Shown in pieces: positions 9,512-32,140 of a stretch of DNA of 32,140 nt; the stretch's first letter is position 1, and each line of letters starts with the position of its first letter. The DNA comes from Nitrobacter sp. Nb-311A (lineage in GTDB: Bacteria; Pseudomonadota; Alphaproteobacteria; Rhizobiales; Xanthobacteraceae). The notes beneath the pieces are model-generated. The model worked only from the letters and a program-made list of their open reading frames with translations. It was not told where the DNA came from and did not search any database. The stretch is taken from assembly GCF_000152905.1 (NCBI RefSeq), contig NZ_CH672423.1, positions 33,477-65,616 on the forward strand. Reading direction: 5' to 3'. The position numbers and the translations under genes are program-made.

Positions 9512-10189
9512 CTAGTGAGCGGATCTCACAGTGTTTCTGATCTGAAGCTGATACGGCCGCCACAAATACCAGAAGGGGAACATAATAAGGTGAACCAGCC
9601 GCGAAAACGGAAACAGCGCAATCACTAGAAACCCGGTAAGCATATGCGCTTTAACAGGAAGCGGCAGCGCCGAAACATAATGTGTTTGCGGGTTCAAAGA
9701 TACCAGCGAGATCAACCACGGTACCGCTGTATCGATGTACCAGTCAGCTCCCCAGCGATAAGCCAGCGAAACCCAAAAACCAAGCGCCACCTGGACTAGC
9801 AAAGCGACCAGCAATATGCCGTCCATAGGGCTCGTCACAGCAAGAATTCGTTCCGTTGTGAACCGGCGCACTATCAATACACACAGGCCTATCAGCGCAG
9901 CGAAGCCGAACGCAAAGCCGATCAGTTCGACCGTGTACAGTGCGGTCGGGGTAGACGTCAGGCTTGACCACATACCGGGAACAAGAAACCCGACTAGATG
10001 CGCTGTTAGCACGACTACAATGCCATAGTGCCAAGGCACCGAGCCCCAGAACAAGCGGCGATTCTCCAAAAGCTGAGACGACAACGTCGAATACGAAAAA
10101 CGATTTGTGCGGTAACGATGAACACCACCGAGAACCGCCACCACGACCGCCAAGTATGGCAGAACCGCGAACAGGAATACGTCATACAT
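9512..10189 (-). CDS. nxrI: NXR haem-b membrane subunit (NarI-like)
   Basis: This 225-residue protein with five predicted membrane helices matches NarI, the dihaem cytochrome b of respiratory nitrate reductase. Four histidines have the NarI spacing: His54 and His64 (PWHYGIVVVLTAHLVG) and His182 and His200 (HMLTGFLVIALFPFSRLVH). In nitrate reductase this subunit takes electrons from quinol. In NXR it would carry electrons away from the iron-sulfur subunit. The ATG at 10189 is preferred because MYDVFLFAVLPY is the normal NarI beginning; a longer frame upstream overlaps nxrJ. The start lies 34 bases after the nxrJ stop. Confidence 0.93.
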   Translation of the reverse strand: MYDVFLFAVLPYLAVVVAVLGGVHRYRTNRFSYSTLSSQLLENRRLFWGSVPWHYGIVVVLTAHLVGFLVPGMWSSLTSTPTALYTVELIGFAFGFAALIGLCVLIVRRFTTERILAVTSPMDGILLVALLVQVALGFWVSLAYRWGADWYIDTAVPWLISLVSLNPQTHYVSALPLPVKAHMLTGFLVIALFPFSRLVHLIMFPFWYLWRPYQLQIRNTVRSAH

Positions 10190-10223
10190 AGAATTTGCCT
10201 CCGTCACACATGGGATATTCCTC

Positions 10224-11252
10224 TCACGCTCGCCAATCCAGCAGGTCGTCTGCTGCGACCTCCGCAAGTGGCTTATACACCTTGAAATGCTGCCGACCGG
10301 CCTGCGTCCAGAACACGACATGCGTTTCCACTGGAGGACAACCGGGATCAGAACAAGGTAGCTCTGACACCATGATCGTTTCGTCCTCGTCAAGATTAAA
10401 ACGCTCCCGCGTCCAACTCAGCACACGCTCCTGCTCAACTGACCGATCGGCACGCTTCTTCGTCATACCCTCATTAAGTAAAAGCCTTAGTGAATCGAGC
10501 ACCTGATGATATGGGTGCGCACGCTTCTCCGCCTCTTCGGCATCATAGTCTTCACTCATAGCCAGTAGGAAACCGCCTTCCAAAACGTCACTCTGACCTT
10601 GGCCCTTAAGTTGCTTACGATCATCCTCTTGACTTTGTCCCTCGAGCAACTTCCGCGCCTCGCGCTGTTGTGCCTTCAGCTGCTTTCGCAAGTCTCGGTC
10701 ATCTAGCTTCGCACGTTCAATTCCGGTGTCGCCATCGATGTCGGCTGGCCCGTGCTGATGGCTTTCGGTTTCCGGCTTCGTAGTCATACGCTCTAGCGCC
10801 GGTAATAACCCTTTGTTCAAAAGGGCATCGATGTCATCACCTTCGTTTTGCGCAGCAAAGCGCAATACGATTGACAGGCGATCCGGCATTTCCGTAGCGT
10901 CAGGCTCAAACCCACTTGCGCGGTAGCTCTTCTTAAGCTCCACCAAAAAAACGCTACGCTTGTAGTTCTCACCGAACAGCTGATAACCAACATAAGGGTG
11001 ACATATCGAGTTCAGATCAAAAAAGCCGCTATAAACCTCTTGCAGCTTCCCAACCTCCGTCTCCTCAGCAAAATCCCGGAAGCTCGCCAACAAAGCCGCA
11101 GCTTGTGGCTGTACAGACTTTATCAAGGCCACACATTCAGCAGCCTTATGTGCCAAACCCGAACTAGGATAATCAAGAATGTCAGCAAACAGGCTCAACA
11201 CCTTGGCTCGGTTCGAATACAAGACCTCTGCACGATGTGAAAAACGACTCAT
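10224..11252 (-). CDS. nxrJ: NXR assembly chaperone (NarJ-like) with extra regions
   Basis: NarJ-type chaperones hold the molybdenum subunit for cofactor insertion and membrane docking. Residues 1-160 match NarJ (FADILDYPSS, YSGFFDLN, CHPYVGYQLFGENYKRS). E. coli NarJ is about 236 residues; this protein has 342. The added length is a charged, Gln/Lys/Arg-rich insertion (about 165-245, with KQLKAQQREARKLLEG), possibly coiled coil, and a C-terminal segment (about 293-342). That segment contains LPCSDPGCPPVET and a possible small-domain ending HFKVYKPLAEV. The paired cysteines C300 and C305 suggest metal or disulfide chemistry. It lies between nxrB and nxrI, as in narGHJI operons. Starting ATG at 11252. 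Confidence 0.88.
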   Translation of the reverse strand: MSRFSHRAEVLYSNRAKVLSLFADILDYPSSGLAHKAAECVALIKSVQPQAAALLASFRDFAEETEVGKLQEVYSGFFDLNSICHPYVGYQLFGENYKRSVFLVELKKSYRASGFEPDATEMPDRLSIVLRFAAQNEGDDIDALLNKGLLPALERMTTKPETESHQHGPADIDGDTGIERAKLDDRDLRKQLKAQQREARKLLEGQSQEDDRKQLKGQGQSDVLEGGFLLAMSEDYDAEEAEKRAHPYHQVLDSLRLLLNEGMTKKRADRSVEQERVLSWTRERFNLDEDETIMVSELPCSDPGCPPVETHVVFWTQAGRQHFKVYKPLAEVAADDLLDWRA

Positions 11253-11414: not shown

Positions 11415-12956
11415 CTATGGCCCTCTTGCCGGATCGGTGTGGAAGCCGACGCCGACCGCACCCTTGCGGATCGGATAGTTGTGCGAGACCGGGTCGAGCT
11501 GCGGGAACAGGGCGTCAACCGCCGTCTCACGCTCCATCGGCGGAACCACGAAGCGCTCCTCGAAGGTCGGCATCGATGTCAGCCGCCAGATCGCCTCGAC
11601 TTCCGCCGCGGTGGTCTTGCCTTCGGACAGCGCCCGCTGCACCTCCTCGTCCGGAATGTCCTTGACCTTCCTCGAACGCATGTAGACGCGCACCGCAACC
11701 AGCTTCTTGTAGACGTCGCGGATGATCTCCTCATTACCGCCCGCCAACAGGCTCGCCATATAGCGAAGCGGAATACGCGACCGCTCGAGCGAACTCATCA
11801 ACGGTCCCAGCCGCGATTCATTGGCTATGTTGTCATAGACCCCGTTCTCCACCTTGGCCAGAACCGGCCCCAGCGGCGGCACATAGAACAGCATCGGCAG
11901 CGTGCGGAACTCCGGATGCAACGGCAGCGCGATGCCCCATTTCTTCACGAACTGGAAAACCGGGAGACTTCTGCGCAGCCTCGATCTTCGCATCTGGAAT
12001 CCCGTTCGCCCTCGCGGCGGCGATGATCTCCGGATCAAACGGATCCTTGATGATGTTGCGCTGAGCCATCACCAGCTGGTCTGCGGCGACTTCGCGGTCT
12101 CCTCGATCGCATCCGCATCGTAAAGCACGAGGCCGATATACCGGATGCGTCCGACGCAGGAGTGGAAGCACGCCGGCGGCTGGCCGCTCTCCAGACGCGG
12201 ATAGCACAGGATGCACTTCTCGGCCTTGCCGGTCGACCAGTTGAAGTAGGTCTTCTTGTAGGGGCAGCCGGAAACGCACATGCGCCAGGCGCGGCAGCGT
12301 TCCTGGCTCACCAGCACAACGCCGTCCTCACCGCGCTTGTAGAGCGCGCCCTGCGGACACGCCGCAACGCATCCCGGATTGAGGCAATGGTTGCAGATGC
12401 GCGGCAGATAGAAAAACACCGTGCTGTTGATCTCGTTGATCTGGCGCATCTCCTCGTCGGAAGCGCCGTCGAAGTTCGGGTCGTTGTTGGCGTAAACCTG
12501 CGAACCGCCGAGGTCGTCGTCCCAGTTCGGACCCGCCTCGATCGTGTCCATGTACTTGCCGGTCACCATCGAGATCGCCCGCGCAGTCGGCTGCTCGTCG
12601 GCCAGCGGCGCATTGATCAGGTTCTGGTAGTCGTAGGTCCAGGGCTCGAAATAATCGTCGAGCGTCGGCAGATAGGGGTTGTAGAAAATGTTCGTCAGCG
12701 TGCCCCACTTGCCCTGCAGCCGCAGCCGCAGGCTCTTCTGCCGCTGACCGTCAACCACCCAGCCGCCACGATACTTGGTCTGGTCTTCCCAACGTGTCGG
12801 GTAACCCGTACCCGGCTTGGTCTCCACGTTGTTCCAGTACATGTACTCGGTGCCCTTGCGATCGGTCCAGATGTTCTTGCACGCGATGCTGCAGGTGTGG
12901 CAACCGATGCACTTGTCCAGGTGAAAGACCATCGAAACTTGAGCTCGGATGTCCAT
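11415..12956 (-). pseudogene. nxrB: NXR beta subunit, iron-sulfur (NarH-like), two compensating frameshifts
   Basis: The full span is 514 codons, the expected NxrB length. As given, translation from ATG 12956 (AGGAG just upstream) stops after 295 residues at 12069. Near 12085 one base is missing relative to the expected frame (AKSP, then DQLVMAQRN in the next frame). Near 11960 one extra base restores the frame (QKSP, then FQFVKKWG). The out-of-frame stretch still reads as good NxrB protein. All iron-sulfur ligands lie before the break: C16/19/22/26, C188/191/196/200, C221/227/231 with W224 (the NarH-type Trp), and C248/251/263/267. NxrB relays electrons from NxrA to NxrI. A sequencing error or genuine decay are both possible. 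Confidence 0.9.
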
Positions 12957-13019: not shown

Positions 13020-13715
13020 TTATGTGTTGCCGTTCTCATCGACAGCGCCGGGCGCAGACGGTTCTGACAATTCATCACTTCGCTTACGACGCGAGTCGAC
13101 CGTCGCTTGCGCAGCAGCCAGCGCAAGTCCGTCACCCATGCTCGCTATTGTCGGGTCGATATGCTGATGTCCCGCTGGAGTTGGAGTGTCGCGTACTGCC
13201 ACGATGCTCCCCTCAAACTCCAACGTCATTCCGGCAAGCGGGTGATTTGTATCTACTACCACATACCCGTTATCCTCATCGACCTCGGTAACGATCACGT
13301 TTTCAACCCGACGCTCGTCATCGCTGTGCGCAAGAAAACACATTCCCGGCTCTATTTGATCAACACCGCCAAACGTTTCAGCCGGCACTCGTTGCTGCAA
13401 CGCTTTATCCCGTTCTCCGTAGGCTTCCTCAGGCGGCAACGTCACTTCAAATCGATCGCCCGCAGCCCTACCCTCGAGCGCTCGCTCAAGGGCAGGCAGC
13501 AAACGTCCACTCCCGTGCTGATATTCCAGCGGCTCATCGCCCCACACAGCTGACCGAATGTGACGAATCTGACCGTTAGTCCGCAGGGTGTAGTTAATGG
13601 TCACGTATTTCCCGACGCTAACCCGCTCTGGCGCACCGAAGTGCGCCGGAGCCGATTCATGATCGTGATCATGATGGTCGTGATCATGATCATGCGTCGC
13701 GACATCGCCTACCAT
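13020..13715 (-). CDS. nxrX: FKBP/SlyD-type peptidyl-prolyl isomerase NxrX
   Basis: This 231-residue protein has an FKBP-like domain: [16 protein letters not shown] (about 34-49), [29 protein letters not shown], and [15 protein letters not shown] near 160, the SlyD-like ending. Before it is a His/Asp tract (residues 8-19, [12 protein letters not shown]), a likely nickel, zinc or cobalt binding tail. It lacks a signal peptide, so it should act in the cytoplasm, probably folding or metallating the NXR subunits. An isomerase gene between nxrA and nxrB is typical of Nitrobacter as I recall. The ATG at 13715 overlaps the end of nxrA by 7 bases, implying translational coupling. Confidence 0.9.
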
Positions 13716-16700
13716 TCCAGCTTCTCCATCTTGCGCACGACGACATGGGTGTCGCGCGTGAAGATACCAGTCGGGCCCCAGTAGTTAAAGCCGTAGGTGA
13801 ACTGAGCATATCCACCGGCCAGGAACAACGGGTTGATGCGAGTACGCGTCAGACTGTTGTGTCCACCGCCGCGCCACTTCCGCTCCTGCGACTTCGGAAT
13901 GTACACCGTGCGCTCGACCGCGTGGTAATACATGCAGGTGCCGGGCTGAATTCGGCGGCTCACATTGGCTCGGGTCACAACCACGCCGTTGTCGTTGTAA
14001 ACCTCGACCCAGTCGTTGTCCTCGATACCGACCTTCTCCGCATCCCGGTCGTTGATCCATACCGGATCCATGCCGCGAGACAGCATCAGCATACGGTGAT
14101 TATCCTTGTAGGTGGAATGAATGTTCCACTTACCGTGCGGCGTGATGTAGTTCAGAACCAATGAACGATCATCAACCCGGCTCTTCACGATATCACCGGT
14201 CTTGCGCGGATTGAGCCGCGGCTTGTAGGTCGGGATGTGCTCGCCGAAGTCCAGATACCACTGGCTGTCAATGTAAAGCGTTTGACGGCCTGTCAACGTA
14301 CGCCACGGCACCAACCGCTCGACGTTCATGCACCAGGCTGAATACGCACGACCATCGTTGGTCATACCCGTCCAGCAAGGGCTGGTCAAAATCCGCCGCG
14401 GCTGCCGCGTCAGATCATAGAACGTCGAAGAGACGCCCCTCGTGGGTTCCGCGATATCGACAAGCGGCAAGCCAACATGATGCTCCTCGTTATGGAAGCC
14501 CTGATAGCACACCTCACCGTTCGCCTCCGGCGCGCACATCAGCAACGTGTTGCACGCATCCAGCACGTCCTCGAGACTCGGGTAACGCTTGCCGCCCCAT
14601 TCCACACACCGCATGTGCCTTGGATCAGGCATCGGCATGATGGGATTATCGAGCATCTGGTCGTACTGCTTCTTGATCGGAATCTGCACGCCGACCGCAG
14701 AAACACCATCCTCCCTCGCCTTCGGACCAAACGAGATGAACTTGTTGTACAGGTTCGCATAATCTCGCTCGACCACTCGGACGTGCGGGAAGGACTTGCC
14801 CGGCACAGGCTTGCACTCACCCTCGGCCCAGTCGAGAATCTCCGGCTGCGCCAACTCATCGGGAGTATCGTGCATAAGAGGCTGAACAACCACGTCCCGA
14901 ACAGGCTTCGAGAACGCCAGCGGAGACAGTTCGCTGACCTTCTTCGCAATCAGCTTGAAGATCTCCCAGTCGGTCTTGGACTCCCACACCGGCGGAACCG
15001 CCTGTCCCAGCACGTGCAGGAACGAGTGCAGATCCGTCGTGTTGAGGTCGTTCTTCTCGTACCAGAACGCCGTCGGCAGCACGATGTCGGAGTAAAGCGA
15101 CGTCGTGTTCATGCGGAAGTTCAGATCGACCACCAGGTCGTACTTTCCGCGCGGCGCCGTATCGCGATACTTCACCCTTTGCGTCTTACCCTTGGCACGA
15201 TCTTCGGCGATCGAGTTGTCGTGAGCCCCAAGATAGTGGCGCAGGAAGAACTCGTGACCCTTGGCGCTCGACTGGATCGCGTTGCCGCGCCAGATGAACC
15301 ACATCCGCGGCCAACTCTCCTCTGCATCGGGATCATCGATCGCAAAGTTCACCTTCTTGCTGGCGACCTGATCGACGACGTGAGTTACGATATCGTCCGT
15401 GCTCTTCGCACCGGCACGCTCGGCTTCAGCCGCGAGCTCGATCGGGTTGCGGTTGAAGTGCGGGGTAAACGGCATCCAGCCCGAGCGCACCGCCTTCGCC
15501 TGCAGGTCGATCGCGTGACCCTTGGCCCAGCGCGGGTTCGGCGCCGTCAGACCATACTCGGTGAACTCCTGCTCGTAGCGCCACTGACAGCTATGGGCAT
15601 AGTGCCAGGTCGACGACTGCACCACGCGCGGCGGCTTGGTCCAGTCCAGAGCCATCGCAATCGTGTTCCACGGAGCCACCGGCGCAAGCTTTTCCTGCCC
15701 GACGTAGTGGTTGATGCCGCCGCCGTTGACGCCGCAGCAGCCGCACAGGATCAAGGCGACCGTCGCCGACCGGTAGCACAGGTTGTTGTAGTACCAGTGG
15801 TTGGCGCTGGCGCCCACGATCACCATCGACTTGCCGTTGGTGAGCTCCGCGTTGGTCGCGAACTCACGCGCGAACCTGATCGCGGTCTCGCGGCCGATGC
15901 CGGTGTGACGCTCCTGCCAGGCCGGCGTGTAGGGCGCGTTCTCGTCGTCATAGCTGGTCGCAAACGAGCCTTCCAGGCCGCGGCTGTGACCGAACTGGGA
16001 CATCATGATGTCGAAGCCGGTCGTGACCAGCACCTCGCCCTTGTCGGTCGCGATGCGCTTCACCGGAACGCCGCGCGAAACGACGCTGCCGTTGACGAAG
16101 TCGTCAAACCCGACCTGCACCACGCCGTCGGACTGATCGATGAAGCTCAGCACCGGATCGATCGGGCTGTTGTCCAGCGTATCTTCCGCGGACAGATTCC
16201 ACTTGCCGTGCGTGGAGCCCCAGCGATCGCCGACCTGACCCTTGAACGCGCGCGGCTCGCCGGTTTTGGAATCGAGCACCAGCATCTTCCAGTCGCCGTT
16301 CTCGACGTCCTGATAGCGCGCCACACGCTTGGCTCGCAGCAGCCGGCCCGTCTTGTAGGTGTTGCCGTTGGGCTCCAGCTCGACAAGGAACGGAAGGTCG
16401 GTATAGCGCTTCACATAGTCGATGAAGTACGGAACCTGGCGGTCGATATAGTACTCCTTGAGAATGACGTGGTTGGCCGCCATCCACAGCGCCGTGTCCT
16501 GGCCCGCCTGGATCGGAATCCACTCGTCGCAGTACTTCGCGATCTGGCTGAAGTCGGGCGACAGAACCACGAACTTGGTGCCCTCGGTCCGAGCCTCGGC
16601 AATAAAATGCACGTCGGGGGTCCGCGTCATGTTCATGTTCGCAGCCATCGAAACAATGAACTTGGAGTTGTACCAGTCGGCGCTTTCGCACACGTCGGTC

Positions 16701-17353
16701 TGGTCGCCCCAGATTTCCGGGAACGAGGTCGGCAGATCGGCGTACCAGTCGTAGAAGCTCATATTGACGCCGCCGAAGAGCTGCAGGAAGCGCGAACCCG
16801 CAGCATACGACAGCATCGACATCGCCGGGATCGGCGAAAAGCCCATCACCCGGTCCGGACCCCATTTACGGGCCGTGTACAGCGCAGCCGCGGCAATCAG
16901 CTCGACCAGCTCTTCCCACTTGGCGCGGCGGAAACCACCCTTGCCGCGCGCCTTCTGCATGCGCAGACGCTTCTGTTCATCTCCGACCAGCGAGGCCCAG
17001 GCCTGCACCGGATCCGGATGCGACGCCTTGGCCTCACGCCAAAGATCGTAAAGGGGACCGCGAATATATGGGTACTTCACCCGGATCGGACTATAGACAT
17101 ACCAGGAGGCCGAGATGCCACGCTGGCATCCGCGGGGTTCGTAGGGCGGCAGACTGCGCTCAAGAAGCGGATAGTCCGTCTGCTGCATCTCCCAGGTAAT
17201 GATGCCGTCCTTGACGTAGATCGCCCAGGAGCAACCACCGGTGCAGTTCACGCCGTGCGTGCTGCGGAAGACGTTATCGTGGGACCAGCGGTTGCGGTAG
17301 AACTCTTCCCACTTGCGCTCCCGGGGATTAACGAGATCAAGTATCCAGCTCAT
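13709..17353 (-). CDS. nxrA: NXR alpha subunit, molybdopterin catalytic (NarG-like)
   Basis: This 1214-residue protein oxidises nitrite to nitrate at a bis-MGD molybdenum site. The N-terminal FS0 iron-sulfur motif is visible as His33, Cys37, Cys41 and Cys76 (HGVNCTGGC, then PRGCQRG). The Mo-ligand aspartate is probably Asp206 in [20 protein letters not shown], matching Asp222 of E. coli NarG. There is no Tat signal, so the enzyme should face the cytoplasm like NarG and Nitrobacter NXR. C-terminal molydopterin-binding motifs such as [18 protein letters not shown] are present. The start ATG shares one base with the stop of the cytochrome gene (TGATG). The reverse reaction, nitrate reduction, is also possible for this family. 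Confidence 0.96.
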
Positions 17354-18333
17354 CAGTGTCTCCTCGGTGCGTTCGCCCGGCCGCGAGGCCTATTACTATT
17401 ACCGTCAGTTCCCTTAAACCTTCCGATCCAACCATCGGAATACGTACCCGTAAACCAACCGCCGTTGTAAGGACCGGTGCTTCGTCCAGTCGTAGGCGTG
17501 GCCATCATCGGCCGCCGTACACCAAACTTCAGTCGATTACGCCACCTGAAACCCGCGATCAGCAACAGGACCACGGCACCCAAGCCGGTCAGACCCGCTA
17601 ACTGCCAGATTGCCGACGCAGACCGTACGGCCAACCCTTCCTGGGCAAGGAAGGCGGCAACGTCTGCCCGCTCCTGCGGAGTCGGCGGCTGCTTCGTCCA
17701 AACCGCCTTCATGGTCGGGGTAGGCAAACCGGCCAACCAGGAGGACAGTCCGTTAGCTCCACCAAGTCGCTTTGACACAGTGGTCAAATCGGGAGCAAGC
17801 GCACCACCGCCGAACGCTCCGAGGCCGCCAGTACTGTGGCAGGCCATACAAGGTGGGCCACCATTAGCGAAGCGATCATTTCCAGTGAATAGATCCTTGC
17901 CCCTCTCGGCATCGCCCTTGAGGGCCGGCGCCGCAGCAGCCGAGGAGCCTCCGGCTCCACCCGCCTCCAGGAAGGCAATAATATTGTCTACCTCGGCGGA
18001 GGTCAGCCCCAAATTGGGCATCTCCATGCCGTTAAATTTACCGAGGAGCTCGACCGCAACCGGATCTTTCTTGGCGATCATTGCGTCCGGCGCGGTAATC
18101 CACGCATGCAGCCATTCGCGAGGGCGCTCTTTCGTGACGTTCTTCAGGTCGGGACCAACAAGGTCCCCCCCGCCTATACTGTGACATGCACTACATGTCT
18201 TATCATCGAATAATTTCTTACCGGCCGCTGCATCGGCTGCGTTAGCCACTGTCGGCAACGCTGCCCATATGGCTGTCGTAGCTAGCGCAACAACGGGCAT
18301 AAATCGCCACGACGCTAGGGGCTTTTTGCTCAT
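17353..18333 (-). CDS. Membrane-anchored dihaem cytochrome c, first gene of NXR operon
   Basis: This 326-residue protein has a signal peptide (residues 1-32, ending VANAADA), two class I cytochrome c domains with CSACH (47-51) and CMACH (162-166), and candidate axial methionines in GMEMPNL and [10 protein letters not shown] membrane helix lies near 245-262 ([18 protein letters not shown]). The tail after the helix is Gly/Arg-rich. The protein would sit on the periplasmic face and accept electrons from nitrite oxidation for delivery to the aa3 oxidase. It heads the cluster and overlaps nxrA by one base. The ATG at 18333 follows a GAGGACGAGGG ribosome site that lies inside a duplicated leader segment. 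Confidence 0.92.
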
Positions 18334-19854: not shown

Positions 19855-21130
19855 CAGGCTGTTGAAGAAGTGTCCCGTCTGGCTTTCGGGATGGCTTAAT
19901 CGCCGTTGTGATGAGATTTGGATTGAGCTGTCGAGCAGTTTGGCGTGGCCGTGGGACGGGGGGTCATGCTGGCACCGCCATGAGCTTCGGCAGTCGCACC
20001 AGATTGTAAGCGGCGGCTGCGAAGGTGAAGGCCCATTCGACGCGGTCGCGGCCGCGGAAGCGGGTCTTGTCCTGGCGGGCGACCGTCTTGATCCAGCCGA
20101 AGGCTTCCTCAATGCGCTTGCGGATACGCTGGCTGACGGCATAGCCGCTGTGCCGCGTCGTGCGTCCGTCGATCGCCGAGCTTCGGCCTCTCGTGTTCTG
20201 CGCCACGTGCGGCGTCACCTTCATCGCGCGCAACTCATTGACGAAGTCCTCCGTGTCATAGGCCTTATCAGCGCCAAGTGTGATGGCCAGGGGCCGGTCG
20301 GCGCGAGGTTCGATCATGTGCAACGCCGCCACCCGCTCGGCATGTCCGTCGGCCAGCGTCAGGCAGGCGTCGACCAACAGGCCGTGGCGGTTCTCCATCA
20401 GCCCATGACCCATGAAGCATAGCTTCGCCTCCTTGCCCTTGCCCTTCTTGTAGAGCCTTGCGTCCGGATCGGTGGTCGAGGCATGCGTGTCGTTAGTCCG
20501 CTTCTGGCCGTGGAAGTCGGCTTCGGCATTGCGCCCGACGCCGCCGGCCGGCGGCTCGCCAGAGCCGTCCTTCGGTTTGACGCTCTTCATCGAAGCCCAG
20601 GCCTCGATCAGCGTGCCGTCGACCGAGAAGTGATCTGTCGACAGCAGCTTCTTCACCTTGGGCTGGGCCAGCACCGCACTCAGGAATTTGGCCGCGATGT
20701 CGCCCTCAAGCAGCCGCTCGCGATTCTTCGAGAACACCGAATGGTCCCAGGCTGGATCGTCGACGCCGATGCCCACGAACCAGCGGAACAGAAGGTCGTA
20801 TTCCAGCCGCTCCATAAGCAACCGCTCCGAGCGGATCGAGTAGAACGCCTGCAAGAGCATCGCCCTGAGCAACTTCTCGGGTGGGATCGACGGCCGCCCG
20901 AGTGGCGAGTACAGCGCCGCGAACTCCCGCTCCAAAGCGACAAGCCCTTCGTTCACCGTGACCCGGATGGCGCGAAGCGGGTGGTCGCGTCGAACCCGCG
21001 CCTCCAGATCAACGTAGCTGAACAGCTCGCCAGTCAGATTGTCACCACCGCGCACTCATCATCTCCAAATCGCTTCGGAGCAATAAATCATGCTCACAGC
21101 TCGGCCGCGACTGGCTTTTTCAACAGCCTG
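19855..21130 (-). mobile_element. IS5-family insertion sequence with CTAG duplication
   Basis: Terminal inverted repeats read CAGGCTGTTGAAGAAG at the left end and CAGGCTGTTGAAAAAG inward from the right end, with one mismatch. A CTAG duplication flanks them (19851-19854 and 21131-21134), fitting the YTAR target of the IS5 group. The 1276-bp element looks complete. Its right copy of CTAG supplies the stop codon of the neighbouring transposase frame. Confidence 0.88.
19964..21055 (-). CDS. IS5-family transposase
   Basis: This 363-residue transposase appears intact. An N-terminal DUF772-type region has YSPLGRPSIPPEKLLRAMLL and LEYDLLFRWFVGI. The DDE core follows with STDHFSVDGTLIEAWAS (first Asp), LGADKAYDTEDFV (second Asp) and RIRKRIEEAFGWIKTVA (the catalytic Glu region). 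A KPKDGSGEPPAGGVGRNAE insertion before the core is usual for this group. The ATG at 21055 lies about 75 bases inside the element end. The gene is wholly inside the element bounded by matched inverted repeats. Confidence 0.93.
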   Translation of the reverse strand: MRGGDNLTGELFSYVDLEARVRRDHPLRAIRVTVNEGLVALEREFAALYSPLGRPSIPPEKLLRAMLLQAFYSIRSERLLMERLEYDLLFRWFVGIGVDDPAWDHSVFSKNRERLLEGDIAAKFLSAVLAQPKVKKLLSTDHFSVDGTLIEAWASMKSVKPKDGSGEPPAGGVGRNAEADFHGQKRTNDTHASTTDPDARLYKKGKGKEAKLCFMGHGLMENRHGLLVDACLTLADGHAERVAALHMIEPRADRPLAITLGADKAYDTEDFVNELRAMKVTPHVAQNTRGRSSAIDGRTTRHSGYAVSQRIRKRIEEAFGWIKTVARQDKTRFRGRDRVEWAFTFAAAAYNLVRLPKLMAVPA

Positions 21131-21900
21131 CTAGGTCATCGACTCATTAAATCGCAACCAGATGCGGATTGAGGCGAGCTTGATGGCAGCGAGGAAGTTG
21201 TCGTCACGTTTGTCGTAGCGGGTGGCGACGGCTCGATAATGCTTGATTTTGTTGAAGAACCGTTCGACCAGGTTGCGCTTGCGATAGAGCTGCCTGTTGA
21301 AGCGCAGGGCGACGACGCGATTTGGCATCGGCTTCACATTGGCCGTCGCGCCGCGCGCGGCCAGGGTCTGGCGCAGGGCGTTGGAATCATAGGCTCGATC
21401 GGCCAGCAGCACGTCGCCGCGCTCGACGGTGTCGATCATGTCCTGCGCACTGCGCCCGTCATGGGCCTGGCCTTCGGTGATCTTGAGGCAGATCGGCAGG
21501 CCGCAGGCATCCACCAGCGCGTGGATCTTGGTTGTCAGCCCGCCGCGCGAGCGACCCATGCAACGGGATCTGGTCTGTTTTTTTGACCGTTGGCCGCATG
21601 CTGATGCACGCGGATCGACGAGGAGTCGATCATCTGGATGTCGCCATCATAAGCCTTTGAAACCGCCGACAGAATACGATCCCAAACGCCTGCCTTGCGC
21701 CACCGGTTGAAGCGGTTCACGCAGGTCGTATGCGGGCCGTAGCGCGCCGGAATATCCGCCCACGGCGCACCGGTACGCAGCCGCCAGAAGATCCCGTTCA
21801 GCACCCGCCGGTCATCCACCCGTGCAACGCCGCGCGATTTGTTCGGCAAAAGCGGCTGAATCACAGACCACTCGAAATCCGTCAGATCAAAACGAGCCAT
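21131..21900 (-). CDS. IS5 superfamily (IS427-like) transposase, two frames with -1 frameshift
   Basis: orfA runs from 21900 to 21535 (MARFDLTDFEWSVIQPLLP, FWRLRTGAPWADIPARYG, and the first DDE Asp in IQMIDSSSIRVHQHA). orfB lies in the next frame to 21131 (MGRSRGGLTTKIHALVD, VLLADRAYDSNALR with the second Asp, LVERFFNKIKHYRAVATRYD with the Glu). The frames join at an A7 run on the minus strand (21578-21584). That is a classic slippery site: a -1 shift gives one transposase of about 256 residues, as is normal for IS427-group elements. The stop TAG lies in the CTAG shared with the adjacent IS5 insertion, so the 3' terminus of this element is not resolved. Confidence 0.85.
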
Positions 21901-22261
21901 TCAATCCTCCTCCCTCCGGAGATTGAATCACGCCTCCCGTCCAAACGGAATCCCATTTATGGGTTCGTGACCTAGCTTGACGAGACCGGACGAGCTTTGA
22001 TGCGCTCGTGAGGGGATCGTTCTTTATCGCGGCCACCATCGGCGCCCGACCCCTCATTGGGGCCTGGTATGGCCAACGACGATCATGATAATTCGTTAGT
22101 ATTTTCAATAACTTGCTCATCAGCCGCATCCGTCAGTCATTCCCTCCCCCCGATTTCAATTGACCTCGTGGCCCTACTCGGTACTCTCGAAAAATTGGAG
22201 TACGCGCCGTCTGATTTTGTCACGGATCGTGCCAGTTCTCCCTGTCCGAAGACCCATTGAT
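21901..22261. other. Region between transposase and cyoB; no cyoA
   Basis: About 360 bases. No part reads as the C-terminus of CyoA in any frame, so the usual first gene of a cyo operon is absent here. The region includes the 5' end of the IS427-like element and presumably the cyoB promoter. A short open frame at 22057-22260 has no recognisable feature. Confidence 0.5.
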
Positions 22262-24235
22262 ATGCTCGGTAAGCTGACGATTGACGCCCTGCCCTTTTAT
22301 AGCGGCATCGCCATGGCAGGAGCGCTGACCGTCGCGTGCGGCGCAGCGGGCGTGATCGCCCTCATCACCTGGCTCGGTCAATGGCGCTCTCTGTGGTCCG
22401 AATGGCTGACCAGCCTCGACCACAAGAAGATCGGCATCATGTACGTGATTCTGGCGCTGATCATGTTGGTGCGCGGCGTCGTTGATGCCCTGATGATACG
22501 CACCCAGCAGGCCTTTGCATTCGAACCGCACGGCTATTTGCCGCCGGACCATTTCGATCAGATCTTCACGTCCCATGCCACGATCATGATGTTCTTCGTG
22601 GCGATGCCGTTTGTGCTCGGCCTGTTCAGCATGGTCATCCCGCAGCAGATCGGTGCGCGCCAGGTCGCGTTTCCGTTCATGAACTCGGCGGGCCTGTGGC
22701 TGACAGTATCAGGCGCCGCATTGGTGATGATTTCGCTCGTCGTCGGCAGGTTCTCTGCCGCCTATTGGACCGCCTACCCGCCCCAATCGGGAATGCAGTT
22801 CAGTCCGGACGTCGGCGTCGATTACTGGATCTGGGCAGTCCTGCTCAGCAGCGTCGGCTCGATACTCGCAGGAATCAGTTGTTTCGTCACGATCGTCAAA
22901 CGGCGCGCGCCAGGGATGCGATTGATGATGATGCCGCTGTTCACCTGGACGGCGCTATGCGCCAGCATATTGATAATATTTGCCTATCCCTCCTTGATCG
23001 TTGCCGCTGCGCTGCTTGGTCTCGACCGACATCTTGGCACGCAATTTTTTGCCGGCAGCGACGGAGTCATGAACTACATCAGCCTGTTCTGGATCTGGGG
23101 GCACCCGCACGTTTACATTCTGATTTTACCGGCTTGCGGCATCTATTCGGAAGTCGTGGCAACGTTCTCCCGAAGACGATTGTTCGGCTACGCGTCGCTC
23201 GTCTATTCCATGATCGCCATTACCGCGCTGTCGTTAGTCGTCTGGTTGCACCATTTCTATACGATCGGTTCCGGCGCCGACGTGAACGCCTTCTTCGGCC
23301 GCGCAGCTCCGCTCATTGCCGTGCCGACCATGGTGACAATCGTCTGCTGGTCGCTCACGATTTATCGTGGTCAGGTGCAGTTCTCGGTGCCGATGCTGTT
23401 TACGCTCGGCTTTATCGTCACATTCCTCGTCGGCGGCATCACCGGCTTTTTGTTCGCGGTAATACCGCCGAGCATACACGACACCACTTTTCGGGCGGCA
23501 CATTTCCACAACCTGCTGATCCCCGGCGCGCTGTTCGGCTATTTCGCCGGCTATCAGTATTGGTTCCCAAAGGCGTTCGGCTTTCGCCTCGAGGAAAAGT
23601 GGGGCAGACGGGCCTTCTGGTGCTGGATCGTCGGCTTTTGCCTGGCCTTCATGCCGCTGTACATCCTCGGCTTCATGGGCATGCCGCAGCGCCTCAATCG
23701 CAGCAATGTCGCCGACTGGCAGCCGTATCTTATCATCGCCCAGGCCGGCGTCCTCTTCATCGTATGCGGGGTCGCCTTCCTGGCCGTCCAGATCGCCGTC
23801 AGCATTCGCGACCGCAAAGCGCTTGCAGCCTCAAGCAACGATCCATGGAACGGCCGGACGCTCGAATGGGCGACTGCCTCGCCGCCGGCCGTCTACAACT
23901 TCGCCGCCGTGCCCCGGGTGCAGAGCGTGGATCCGTGGTGGGCCTTGAAGCAGGCAGGAACGGCGGACCATCGGCCCACACGTTTTCATGACATCCTCAT
24001 GCCCGGCAAGAGCGGTGCGGCAATCATGCTTGGCGCGATGTCGTTCGTATTCGCCTTTGCCATGATCTGGCAAATCTGGTGGCTGGCCGCCGCTGGCGGG
24101 CTAGGCATGTTTGCGGCAGTGGTCTCGCAGACATTCCATGATCATGCTGGCCACCGTATCCCCGCAAGCGAAGTTGAGGCGATCGAAAGCCGGCGCGTCC
24201 TCGCGCCCGTGCTCGGACGTGAGGCGCCGACGTGA
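22262..24235 (+). CDS. cyoB: bo3-type haem-copper oxidase subunit I lacking proton-channel residues
   Basis: This 657-residue protein aligns along its whole length with E. coli CyoB (opening MLGKLTIDALPF against MFGKLSLDAVPF, which fixes the start at 22262, downstream of other in-frame starts). Kept: quinol-site R71, D75 and H97; low-spin haem H105; CuB histidines H281, H330, H331; active-site Y285; haem ligands in HFHN (H414, H416). Changed: D-channel Asp135 is Gln134 (GARQVAFPF), Glu286 is His283 (GHPHVYILI), K-channel Lys362 is Thr359 (PTMVTIVCW), and one of the two haem-propionate arginines is Gln (GMPQRLN). It is followed by cyoC with a 4-base overlap. cyoA is missing. Normal O2-driven proton pumping is unlikely; NO reduction or another gas reaction is an inference. 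Confidence 0.9.
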   Translation: MLGKLTIDALPFYSGIAMAGALTVACGAAGVIALITWLGQWRSLWSEWLTSLDHKKIGIMYVILALIMLVRGVVDALMIRTQQAFAFEPHGYLPPDHFDQIFTSHATIMMFFVAMPFVLGLFSMVIPQQIGARQVAFPFMNSAGLWLTVSGAALVMISLVVGRFSAAYWTAYPPQSGMQFSPDVGVDYWIWAVLLSSVGSILAGISCFVTIVKRRAPGMRLMMMPLFTWTALCASILIIFAYPSLIVAAALLGLDRHLGTQFFAGSDGVMNYISLFWIWGHPHVYILILPACGIYSEVVATFSRRRLFGYASLVYSMIAITALSLVVWLHHFYTIGSGADVNAFFGRAAPLIAVPTMVTIVCWSLTIYRGQVQFSVPMLFTLGFIVTFLVGGITGFLFAVIPPSIHDTTFRAAHFHNLLIPGALFGYFAGYQYWFPKAFGFRLEEKWGRRAFWCWIVGFCLAFMPLYILGFMGMPQRLNRSNVADWQPYLIIAQAGVLFIVCGVAFLAVQIAVSIRDRKALAASSNDPWNGRTLEWATASPPAVYNFAAVPRVQSVDPWWALKQAGTADHRPTRFHDILMPGKSGAAIMLGAMSFVFAFAMIWQIWWLAAAGGLGMFAAVVSQTFHDHAGHRIPASEVEAIESRRVLAPVLGREAPT

Positions 24236-24849
24236 CAGATGCCGTCATCACCGCCGATCCGGGCGATGAAGCTGATGCCGACGCAGTCCAACGCGCCATC
24301 GAGGAAAAGATCTACGGCTTTTGGCTCTGCCTGATAAGTGACGCGATCATCTTCGCGCTGCTGTTCGCAATCTTTGTTGTCATGGCGCAGAACACCGCCG
24401 ACGCATCTGCCGGACGCACGTTATTCCAGCTCCCCCGCATCTTCGCAGCAACCGTGCTGTTGCTGGCGAGCAGTGCCACCTTCGGCCTCGCCAGCGTTGC
24501 GATAGCAGCCAGGCAACGCGGGCGCGTGATCGTCTGGCTGGGGATGACCATCATGTTCGGTCTCGGCTTCGTCGCCACGGAGATCACGGAGTTCCACGGC
24601 ATGGCCGTCGCCGATGCCGCCCCGTGGCGAAACGGCTTTCTTTCTGCTTTTTTCGCTCTGGTCGGCACCCACGGGGCTCATGTCAGCTTCGGCCTGGTTT
24701 GGATTGTTTTGCTGGGATGCGAGATCGCATTGCGCGGGCCGACCCCCATCGCCGCCTCGCGCCTTTATCGCCTGGGCTTGTTCTGGCATTTCCTCATTAT
24801 TGTCTGGATCAACATTTTCTCATTCGTTTACCTGCCGAGGCTTCTGTAA
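24232..24849 (+). CDS. cyoC: bo3-type oxidase subunit III
   Basis: This 205-residue membrane protein matches CyoC, with five hydrophobic helices. Conserved parts include KIYGFWLCLISDAIIFALLF, FVATEITEFHGMA, and the strongly kept GFLSAFFALVGTHGAHV followed by LFWHFLIIVWINIFSFVYL. The start is a GTG (24232) overlapping the stop of cyoB in GTGA, so the two are translationally coupled. Subunit III stabilises the catalytic subunit. Unlike cyoB it shows no obvious loss of conserved residues, which suggests the complex is still assembled. Confidence 0.92.
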   Translation: MTDAVITADPGDEADADAVQRAIEEKIYGFWLCLISDAIIFALLFAIFVVMAQNTADASAGRTLFQLPRIFAATVLLLASSATFGLASVAIAARQRGRVIVWLGMTIMFGLGFVATEITEFHGMAVADAAPWRNGFLSAFFALVGTHGAHVSFGLVWIVLLGCEIALRGPTPIAASRLYRLGLFWHFLIIVWINIFSFVYLPRLL

Positions 24850-24906: not shown

Positions 24907-25215
24907 ATGCTGAAATCGTACCTCGTCGGCGTGCTTCTGGCGTCGGTGCTGACCGCGATTCCATTCGGCTTCGTCGCCACCCGCACACTACCTCCGGGAC
25001 AAACCTTGATCGTCATCGGCGTCGCTGCGGTTGCCCAGGTCGTTGTCCACTTGCGGTACTTCCTGCGTCTTGATCTGAAGTCACGGTCGCAAGACAAATT
25101 CATCGCGCTGTGCTTCGCCGCCACCGTGCTCTTCATCCTCGTCGGCGGCACGCTCTGGATCATGTTTGATCGCTTACCGTACCGCGTAGTCGGTGACGCC
25201 ACCACGATATCTTAA
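24907..25215 (+). CDS. cyoD: bo3-type oxidase subunit IV
   Basis: This 102-residue protein has three membrane helices and matches CyoD, the small subunit of cytochrome bo3. Shared features: SYLVGVLLASVLTAIPF at the N-terminus, AAVAQVVVHLRYFLRLD in the middle helix, and a final LVGGTLWIMFDRLPY. The subunit is thought to assist assembly around CuB. It starts at ATG 24907 with a GGGG-rich upstream stretch, 57 bases after cyoC. No cyoE haem-O synthase follows; ctaB on the other strand may provide haem O. Confidence 0.9.
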   Translation: MLKSYLVGVLLASVLTAIPFGFVATRTLPPGQTLIVIGVAAVAQVVVHLRYFLRLDLKSRSQDKFIALCFAATVLFILVGGTLWIMFDRLPYRVVGDATTIS

Positions 25216-25533: not shown

Positions 25534-26292
25534 CTACATCGCGCGACGCTGGCTGCGCCACCAAAAGCCAAAGGTGAAAAGCACCGCTGCGGCAAGACCG
25601 AACCAGGTAATGGCGTATTGAAGGTGATCATCCTTCAAATGCACATCGAGCGGGCCAGGCTTCGGAACGCCGTCCGCAGGCACCGGCGTCTCAAGGTCGA
25701 TGTAGAACGGTGCAACGTTTCCCCAGCCGAGAGCCTGCGCCATCGCGCCTATGTCGCGCGAAAACCACAGCCGCTTGCCGCGATTGGGAGACGGAGTCAG
25801 AATACCAGCTTCTTCCGGAAAGCGTAAATAGCCTGTCATTGCGACAAGCTGGCCCGTCACCAACGGTTTCACAGCACGATTCTGCTGGTTGCGATCCTGC
25901 TTGGTGTTTCGCACAAAGCCCGCATTAACAACGAGCACACGACCATCGGGCAGACGCGCGGGCAGAAATGCCCACGTACCGAGTCCAACATCCGGACGCA
26001 CTGCCGAACCGGAGCTGTAAACCATCGCGTCGGATTCCGCCTCGTAGGTCGCCGAAAAACTCACCCGGCGAAACTCATCCCCGGTCGACGATAATGTCGG
26101 CCACTCTGCCGGCGGGGGCAAGGCGACGGGCGCGGCTGTCAATCGCTCGGTGAGCGCAGCAATCAGCACGTGCTTCTCGGCGCCACGCCGCAACTGCCAG
26201 ACGCCAAGGCCGATGAGCACGGCGACCATGGCCAGCGCAACAAGGCCAAGGCCGAGTCCTCCGCTGCTGCGGTGACGGCGGGGAGCGCTCAT
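25534..26292 (-). CDS. surf1: SURF1-family cytochrome oxidase assembly protein
   Basis: This 252-residue protein is anchored by one helix at each end (residues about 13-32 and 228-246). The N-terminal helix is followed by the SURF1 motif GLGVWQLRRGAEKH. The C-terminal helix is preceded by HLQYAITWFGLAAA, also typical. Conserved internal parts include GTWAFLPARLPDGRVLVVNAG. SURF1 helps insert haem a into subunit I of aa3 oxidase. Its ATG overlaps the DUF983 stop by four bases (ATGA), so it belongs to the cta operon and not to the nearby cyo genes. Confidence 0.92.
   Translation of the reverse strand: MSAPRRHRSSGGLGLGLVALAMVAVLIGLGVWQLRRGAEKHVLIAALTERLTAAPVALPPPAEWPTLSSTGDEFRRVSFSATYEAESDAMVYSSGSAVRPDVGLGTWAFLPARLPDGRVLVVNAGFVRNTKQDRNQQNRAVKPLVTGQLVAMTGYLRFPEEAGILTPSPNRGKRLWFSRDIGAMAQALGWGNVAPFYIDLETPVPADGVPKPGPLDVHLKDDHLQYAITWFGLAAAVLFTFGFWWRSQRRAM

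Positions 26293-29579: not shown

Positions 29580-32140
<2,561 letters not shown>

Follow-up and report, generated by a model that had tools for sequence, protein, structure and literature searches.

A bo3-like oxidase subunit I lacking proton-channel residues and its association with nitrite oxidation genes in Nitrobacter

Among described systems, the bo3 quinol oxidase of Escherichia coli (CyoABCD) is closest to the product of a cyoB-like gene at 22262–24235 (forward strand) in a 32,140-nucleotide stretch of Nitrobacter sp. Nb-311A (contig NZ_CH672423.1, positions 33,477 to 65,616), the whole of which is referred to as the window. The gene encodes a subunit I of 657 amino acids (aa) in which key residues of both proton channels were lost and all metal ligands kept. 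The likeness to the E. coli enzyme covers the fold and length of CyoB, the haem and CuB ligands, Tyr288, the quinone-site residues, and the accompanying CyoC and CyoD genes; the window system differs in having no CyoA at the locus and in the loss of D135, E286, K362, and R481 (residue numbering is that of E. coli CyoB, 8f68, taken from its alignment with the window CyoB). Sequence and setting lead us to give a probability of roughly 0.4 to the reading that this channel-less CyoB is a haem-copper redox protein that does not pump and serves in the nitrite-oxidation chain, possibly as cytochrome a1.

Three other groups of described systems bear on this protein. The nitric oxide (NO) reductase families cNOR, qNOR, sNOR, and gNOR are predicted to be without proton channels, eNOR being excepted (PMC8756737, in its Table A4), and the window CyoB likewise lacks the oxidase proton-channel residues; in the same table, however, the active-site residue is Tyr in the oxygen reductases, as in the window CyoB, but E in cNOR and qNOR, N in sNOR, Q in eNOR, D in gNOR, and N in CuANOR. 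Cytochrome a1c1 of Nitrobacter is, according to the title of Fukuoka 1987 (cited in PMC8387239), an iron-sulphur molybdoenzyme that contains haems a and c, and Tanaka 1983, with a title on the same topic, is cited in PMC6606698 and PMC9127996. Finally, cytochrome a1 of Acetobacter is a cytochrome ba ubiquinol oxidase according to the title of Matsushita 1990 and is called a bo3 homologue in the introduction of the citing paper (PMC12724360); compared by description only, this ba3 quinol oxidase differs in that it is taken in the available text of that paper to pump protons and reduce O2. A literature search that reached titles and excerpts returned no paper recognised as describing a channel-less Nitrobacter cyoB.

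Sequence and structure of the channel-less CyoB

The reading frame of the window cyoB is uninterrupted from the ATG at 22262 through 657 codons of protein. In frame with this ATG on the forward strand, the D-channel Asp135 site is occupied by Gln (CAG, codon 134, 22661–22663), the Glu286 site by His (CAC, codon 283, 23108–23110), and the K-channel Lys362 site by Thr (ACA, codon 359, 23336–23338), confirming the codons named in an earlier sequence-only reading of the window. That reading had also proposed that one haem-propionate Arg was replaced by Gln and that the haem and CuB histidines, the active-site Tyr, and the quinol-site residues were kept, and alignment with E. coli CyoB bore this out: R481 is replaced by Gln and R482 retained, H106, H284, H333, H334, H419, H421, and Y288 are all present, and R71, D75, H98, and Q101 are unchanged. 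We take the six His to be the haem and CuB ligands, Tyr288 to have the cross-link role, and the last four residues to belong to the quinone site. A YS motif replaces the Glu in A2-type oxidases; it is absent from the window CyoB, as had been claimed, the local sequence being WGHPH.

The product of ctaD in the same window (aa3 oxidase subunit I, 29580–31196, reverse strand) retains D, E, K, R481, and D407 and serves as an internal control, in agreement with the earlier claim that channel loss is not a general trait of the host. A second Nitrobacter genome (G083) carries, in addition to its channel-less gene, two ordinary CyoBs on contigs C1 and C4 (L081 and L082), in which D, E, and K are kept and the D75 position is occupied by Glu. 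A general host trait was ruled out, since neither ctaD nor these two ordinary CyoBs have lost the channel residues.

The window protein is named CyoB by NCBIfam at 875.8 bits, below the equivalog cut-off of 1020.35, and matches E. coli CyoB (8f68) at 53% identity (phmmer E 2.9e-235). An AlphaFold2 model built from 21 sequences had a mean predicted local distance difference test score (pLDDT) of 75.1 and a predicted template modelling score (pTM) of 0.84. The best Foldseek matches of this model were to E. coli bo3 (template modelling score, TM, 0.92 to 7n9z), and the 50 best of the 89 matches with E no greater than 0.001 were all oxidases, with no NOR among them. The window CyoB is bo3-like by descent, fails two defining bo3 features, and, by its Tyr, falls outside the NO-reductase families of Table A4.

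Distribution, order of loss, and selection

A search of 296 genomes of the family with the window CyoB (E up to 1e-100, a limit that overlooks short contig-edge fragments such as the one in G183) gave a match in 191 genomes, and D, E, and K were read in the subset of loci that was retrieved. Six further orthologues came from the same genus at 82–92% identity (L008–L013) and two from a sister genus at 73–74% (L014 and L015), followed by L016–L019 at 61–62%, L020 at 57%, and then ordinary CyoBs at ∼48–54%. A wider scan of relatives (the best 80 of 570) added Nitrobacter vulgaris Ab1 (L086), treated as the same sequence as L008, and a metagenome-assembled genome (MAG), Proteobacteria bacterium REEB74 (L087, 77%). 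The clade as defined here comprises ten proteins, seven from Nitrobacter and the three intermediates L014, L015, and L087. In a tree of 45 proteins (IQ-TREE), these ten grouped together with support of 100/100 and branched as L015, (L014, (L087, Nitrobacter)), the L014 step being weak (84/44) and the step joining L087 to Nitrobacter strong (100/96). The CyoBs of L016–L019 belong to the same wider CyoB clade in the tree and to the same bacterial family and share the cyoBC(D) gene order, but they retain D, E, and K and have cyoA immediately upstream.

In all seven Nitrobacter CyoBs, position 135 is occupied by Q or R, 286 by H, and 362 by T, and the intermediates read R, D, T (L087), D, E, T (L015), and D, E, M (L014) at these positions. 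By comparison, D135, E286, K362, and R481 are each invariant in 107/107 distinct outgroup CyoBs and altered in 7/7 from Nitrobacter. For this outgroup, the ten proteins of the clade and duplicates of their loci were removed, as were identical sequences and L156; the set leans to near relatives, being made up of the best-scoring loci of the searches (including the best 80 of 570) plus a few others. L156, from Halomonas ventosae, reads X at position 135 (a stop or ambiguous base) and was left out for that reason. Across the outgroup, 175 positions are at least 98% conserved, 16 of which are altered in all seven Nitrobacter proteins; D135, E286, and K362 are among these 16, an outcome with a chance of 0.0006 for a random three of 175 (the set having been chosen post hoc), and none of the 16 is a ligand, Tyr, or quinone-site position. 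All ten clade members keep the residues at the ligand, Tyr, and quinone-site positions. At R481, L011 has Glu and the other nine have Gln. Two features absent from the sequence-only reading also emerged: position 407, which is D in 79 and N in 28 of the 107 outgroup CyoBs, is S or G in six of the seven Nitrobacter proteins, and new residues Y169, Y243, and R416 are present in 7/7 Nitrobacter and 0/3 intermediates.

The codons changed stepwise, from AAG to ACG or ATG at K362 and from GAA through GAC to CAC at E286. Because of the branching of the tree and the codon states of the intermediates, the losses are placed in order: K362 went first, then D135 together with the change of E286 to Asp, and then Asp gave way to His in Nitrobacter. 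A sequencing error was ruled out by the same residues in seven genomes and by the stepwise codons. The DNA pattern of the Glu-to-His change was found in one of 385 genomes of the class, that one being the window's own; this sample is without other Nitrobacter.

The channel residues were not lost alone. In L045–L049, the loci of channel-bearing relatives at 56–62%, cyoA lies directly upstream of cyoB, and the K-channel entry position of the relatives' CyoA is E or D in 5/5. No CyoA match beyond chance was found at the ten clade loci, namely those of the seven Nitrobacter, L014, L044 (the longer contig of L015), and L087, where the upstream DNA covered amounted to 1.45 kb in L014, 2.7 kb in L044, and 3.1 kb in L087. 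A whole-genome search with the CyoA model likewise gave nothing above the cut-off of 266.2 in 9/9 clade genomes; the best scores were 29.8–80.1 bits in eight of them (52.7 in the window's own genome) and 233.8 bits in G083, the latter beside an ordinary cyoB. One match above the cut-off (278.2 bits) came from G150, a genome without the channel-less gene. A cyoA elsewhere in the genome was rejected on these scores, by a cut-off that is strict and not a perfect test, as the true cyoA of G215 (239.1 bits) and that of G083 also fall below it; COX_ARM was found in 0/11 genomes, a weak check since the CyoA of G083 was missed too. As far as sampled, the losses of subunit II and of K362 share one branch, and the two match because the K channel is made up of Lys362 plus a subunit II Glu near its entry, as described in an excerpt of PMC8239185.

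Subunits III and IV are still encoded in the window, by cyoC (205 aa, 24232–24849, forward strand), which overlaps the stop of cyoB, and cyoD (102 aa, 24907–25215, forward strand). In two related genomes (L039 and L040), no cyoD was found at the locus, and cyoC carries an in-frame insertion of 36–39 aa with a palindromic core in the DNA (L039:8109-8834; L040:6938-7672).

Over 21 Nitrobacter pairs, the ratio of nonsynonymous to synonymous substitution rates (dN/dS; Nei-Gojobori) of cyoB was 0.116–0.191, compared with 0.170–0.214 for pairs of intermediates and 0.108–0.214 for five pairs of ordinary CyoBs. Mean values in the same three species were 0.155 for cyoB and 0.149 for ctaD, and means of 0.25 (seven loci) and 0.29 (four loci) were obtained for cyoC and cyoD, so that, of the three cyo genes, the one for subunit I is under the strongest constraint. 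The channel-less cyoB is not simply decaying, because its dN/dS is like that of ctaD, and a simple pseudogene was judged unlikely on this ground and on that of the intact frame. The sequence-only reading had argued against simple decay, and the window copy indeed does not stand alone under relaxed selection: the other six Nitrobacter orthologues share all three losses, and dN/dS is low. Upstream of cyoB (22158–22187, forward strand), alignment revealed a conserved promoter-like block, AATTGACC, followed after 16 bp by TACTCT; the first element is present in 10/10 aligned upstream regions and the second in 9/10 (TAGTCT in L087), consistent with cyoB having its own promoter.

Association with nxr genes and the surrounding locus

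In the window, cyoB is divergent from nxrA (13709–17353, reverse strand), which encodes the NarG-type alpha subunit of nitrite oxidoreductase (NXR) and lies 4.9 kb away. The remainder of the nxr cluster is also on the reverse strand: upstream of nxrA is a gene for a cytochrome c with two CXXCH motifs and, by eye, a hydrophobic C-terminal stretch (17353–18333), and the cluster continues with an FKBP-type peptidyl-prolyl isomerase (13020–13715), nxrB (11415–12956), a narJ-type chaperone (10224–11252), and a narI-type gamma subunit (9512–10393) with four His aligned to what we take to be the haem-ligand positions of E. coli NarI. The window copy of nxrB has an in-frame stop at codon 296, after which ∼45 residues are, by eye, unlike NxrB before the frame resumes. 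The genome also has a second nxrA copy, on contig C6.

When the window NxrA was compared with the 296 family genomes, ten had a match of at least 82% (G000, G019, G061, G083, G102, G135, G164, G115, G146, and G183), and the other matches listed were at 44–62%, in line with the 47% identity given for NxrA versus NarG in an excerpt of PMC13101473. Nine of these ten genomes carry a complete CyoA-less CyoB, and the tenth, G183 (79% complete), has CyoB residues 1–23 at a contig edge at 96% identity. No CyoB match above 62% identity was found in the other 286 family genomes at the E limit of 1e-100. Both the Nitrobacter-type nxrA and the channel-less CyoB are lacking in G119 and G150 of the same genus, and both are present in the REEB74 MAG (NxrA ends at 92–97%). 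Among 20 genomes of the sister genus, the channel-less CyoB was found only in G115, G146, and, as the stub, G183. In six of seven Nitrobacter assemblies, nxrA and cyoB point away from each other, with 3164–4909 bp between them.

Between the two lie further genes. In all seven Nitrobacter loci, the region upstream of cyoB encodes a conserved 248-aa protein (PF23977; 19006–19752 in the window, forward strand); it is Pam3 phage gp34-like, and its dN/dS is very low (mean of 0.08 in three species). An insertion sequence (IS) transposase of the DDE type (19964–21055, reverse strand) occupies the stretch where most relatives have a frame of 509–551 aa, and a second transposase-like insertion, assigned by eye (21131–21900, reverse strand), is directly upstream of cyoB. 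The 509–551 aa frame is intact in four Nitrobacter relatives, broken in L040, and not present in G083; we take it as a candidate for the glycosyltransferase mentioned in the excerpt of PMC13101473. On a sister-genus contig (L044:86-946, reverse strand), a gene ∼1.7 kb upstream of cyoB encodes a membrane protein with, by eye, a likeness to formate/nitrite transporters.

Downstream, the cyo genes meet a convergent cta operon that ends in surf1 (25534–26292, reverse strand) and includes ctaD and ctaC (aa3 oxidase subunit II, 31313–32113, reverse strand). The haem-copper oxidase matches in the window's own genome (G000) are four of equal score, which are ctaD, then the channel-less cyoB, and one that is short and weak. 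The four ctaD matches lie on contigs C4, C40, C42, and C44 (L001–L004). The short one (L006:1300-1920), a frame of 207 aa, is COX1-like over a short stretch, with a weak match to PF00115 and none in NCBIfam.

Possible roles of the channel-less CyoB

The sequence-only reading was right on the loss of the channels and the absence of decay and incomplete on the loss of subunit II and the tie to nxr, and these two change the most likely role. It had offered a quinol-fed NO reductase or a non-pumping oxidase; the Tyr kept in 10/10 clade members speaks against an NO-reductase family, and the second option stays open. In the reading preferred here, that of a non-pumping redox protein of the nitrite-oxidation chain, an A1-type (bo3-like) subunit I with CyoC and CyoD has lost subunit II and its cytoplasmic proton-uptake residues, while selection maintains the quinone site, the Tyr, and the ligands of haem and CuB. 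Such a protein would be unable to pump or to take substrate protons from the cytoplasm; on the periplasmic side, it may exchange electrons with NXR, cytochrome c, or the quinone system. It is very likely that the protein neither pumps nor carries out ordinary O2 reduction, because with D135, E286, K362, and subunit II gone there is no known cytoplasmic proton route, and because mutation of channel-end residues is reported to lead to a loss of activity in A-type oxidases (excerpt of PMC8239185). A role in the nitrite-oxidation chain is likely, our confidence being lowered because linkage is shown only in Nitrobacter.

A tentative extension, rather doubtful as a whole, is that the channel-less CyoB is cytochrome a1, a former bo3 quinol oxidase turned into the haem-a electron-transfer module of Nitrobacter NXR: carrying haem A in the high-spin site, it would be the haem-a part of the cytochrome a1c1 purified with NXR, whose c part would be the di-haem cytochrome c encoded in the nxr cluster. 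The cyoB gene co-occurs with nxr and lies 3–5 kb from nxrA in six of seven Nitrobacter assemblies; no sequence link from the purified haem a itself to any gene was found, the identity being hypothetical, and to our knowledge no gene has been assigned to the haem a of purified Nitrobacter NXR. Cytochrome a1c1 presumably has a 589 nm band and subunits of ∼55, 29, and 19 kDa, which we treat as a lead, and not as evidence, for CyoB, cytochrome c, and CyoC on gels.

Several observations weigh against a role in the nitrite-oxidation chain and against the identity with cytochrome a1. The CuB ligands and Tyr288, kept in 10/10 members, are superfluous for a pure electron relay; the NarI-type subunit with its four aligned His would give a transmembrane electron route without CyoB; and both haems of subunit I lie at a similar membrane depth. 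Haem type is not readable from sequence, and the haem a of old NXR preparations could be contaminating aa3. The co-occurrence of nxrA and cyoB falls within one clade and does not represent many independent events, the two genes are on different contigs in G164, G115, G146, G183, and the REEB74 MAG, so that linkage is seen in Nitrobacter only, and no nxr gene is present within 2.7 kb upstream of cyoB in L044. Finally, some loosening of selection may have occurred, given the missing cyoD and the cyoC insertion in two genomes and the higher dN/dS of pairs between Nitrobacter and intermediates (0.196–0.264).

The quinone-site residues R71, D75, H98, and Q101 and the binuclear centre with its Tyr, kept in 10/10 members, would also suit a scalar, non-pumping quinol oxidase, an explanation that we consider unlikely. 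Quinol would be oxidised at the kept quinone site and O2 reduced at the haem-CuB-Tyr centre, with substrate protons drawn from the periplasm through a P side that became open when subunit II was lost; the enzyme would consume electrons or O2, and less proton motive force would be built. Remodelling of the P side (R481 lost in 7/7, position 407 changed in 6/7, and new Y169, Y243, and R416 in 7/7) would fit, these sites being presumably located there, but the nxr association is left unexplained, and a nitrite oxidiser presumably delivers its electrons at cytochrome c, above the quinol pool. The Tyr marks oxygen reductases in Table A4 of PMC8756737, in favour of such an oxidase, and the activity loss on channel-end mutation (excerpt of PMC8239185) argues the other way.

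A further candidate is an NO-converting enzyme, oxidising NO to nitrite at CuB beside NXR or reducing it to N2O. In its favour, the clade coincides with the nxrA carriers; we nevertheless hold this to be quite unlikely. The oxidative form would release a proton and an electron, so that no proton uptake would be needed, and would return NO to the nitrite pool. Haem-copper oxidases are reported to oxidise NO to nitrite via CuB, with one electron left in the enzyme (PMC8780969), but this reaction is described as an inhibition pathway and not as a physiological enzyme. Nitrite oxidation in Nitrobacter was once speculated to proceed via NO (excerpt of PMC3578206), and an N. vulgaris genome is described as having nirK and no nor, consistent with other Nitrobacter (excerpt of PMC13101473); the few haem-copper matches in the window's own genome agree with this. 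Against it, NirK model matches were obtained in 9/11 genomes but above the cut-off in 0/11, and NirK as a partner was therefore not relied on. For the reductive form, the NO-reductase families of Table A4 lack the Tyr kept here (PMC8756737); membership in one of them was ruled out by this Tyr in 10/10 clade members, the newer nNOR lying outside the table. NO reduction is also no known side reaction of A1-type oxidases in the excerpt of PMC6967387, a point on which sources disagree, as bo3 is counted among NO reducers in that of PMC8780969. A pseudo-oxidase without turnover, kept as a structural, assembly, or membrane-organising partner or persisting as a slowly decaying cyo relic, is very unlikely. 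The loss of subunit II, the missing cyoD and expanded cyoC in two genomes, and the weaker constraint on cyoC and cyoD would fit it, and Acetobacter is described as retaining a COX1-like gene that is devoid of metal-binding residues, probably in a structural role (excerpt of PMC10715153); the pattern here is the opposite, with every metal ligand kept in 10/10, a cyoB dN/dS like that of ctaD, and the promoter-like block conserved before cyoB in 10/10 loci.

Proton channels are at the heart of how haem-copper oxidases work. In this clade, residues invariant in every other CyoB read were lost in a readable order, with the metal site preserved and living intermediates at hand, and the stepwise loss amounts to a natural test of what these channels are for. 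In Nitrobacter, where the handling of NO without a nor gene is unexplained, the tie of the channel-less CyoB to nxr suggests that nitrite oxidation involves a component not recognised so far.

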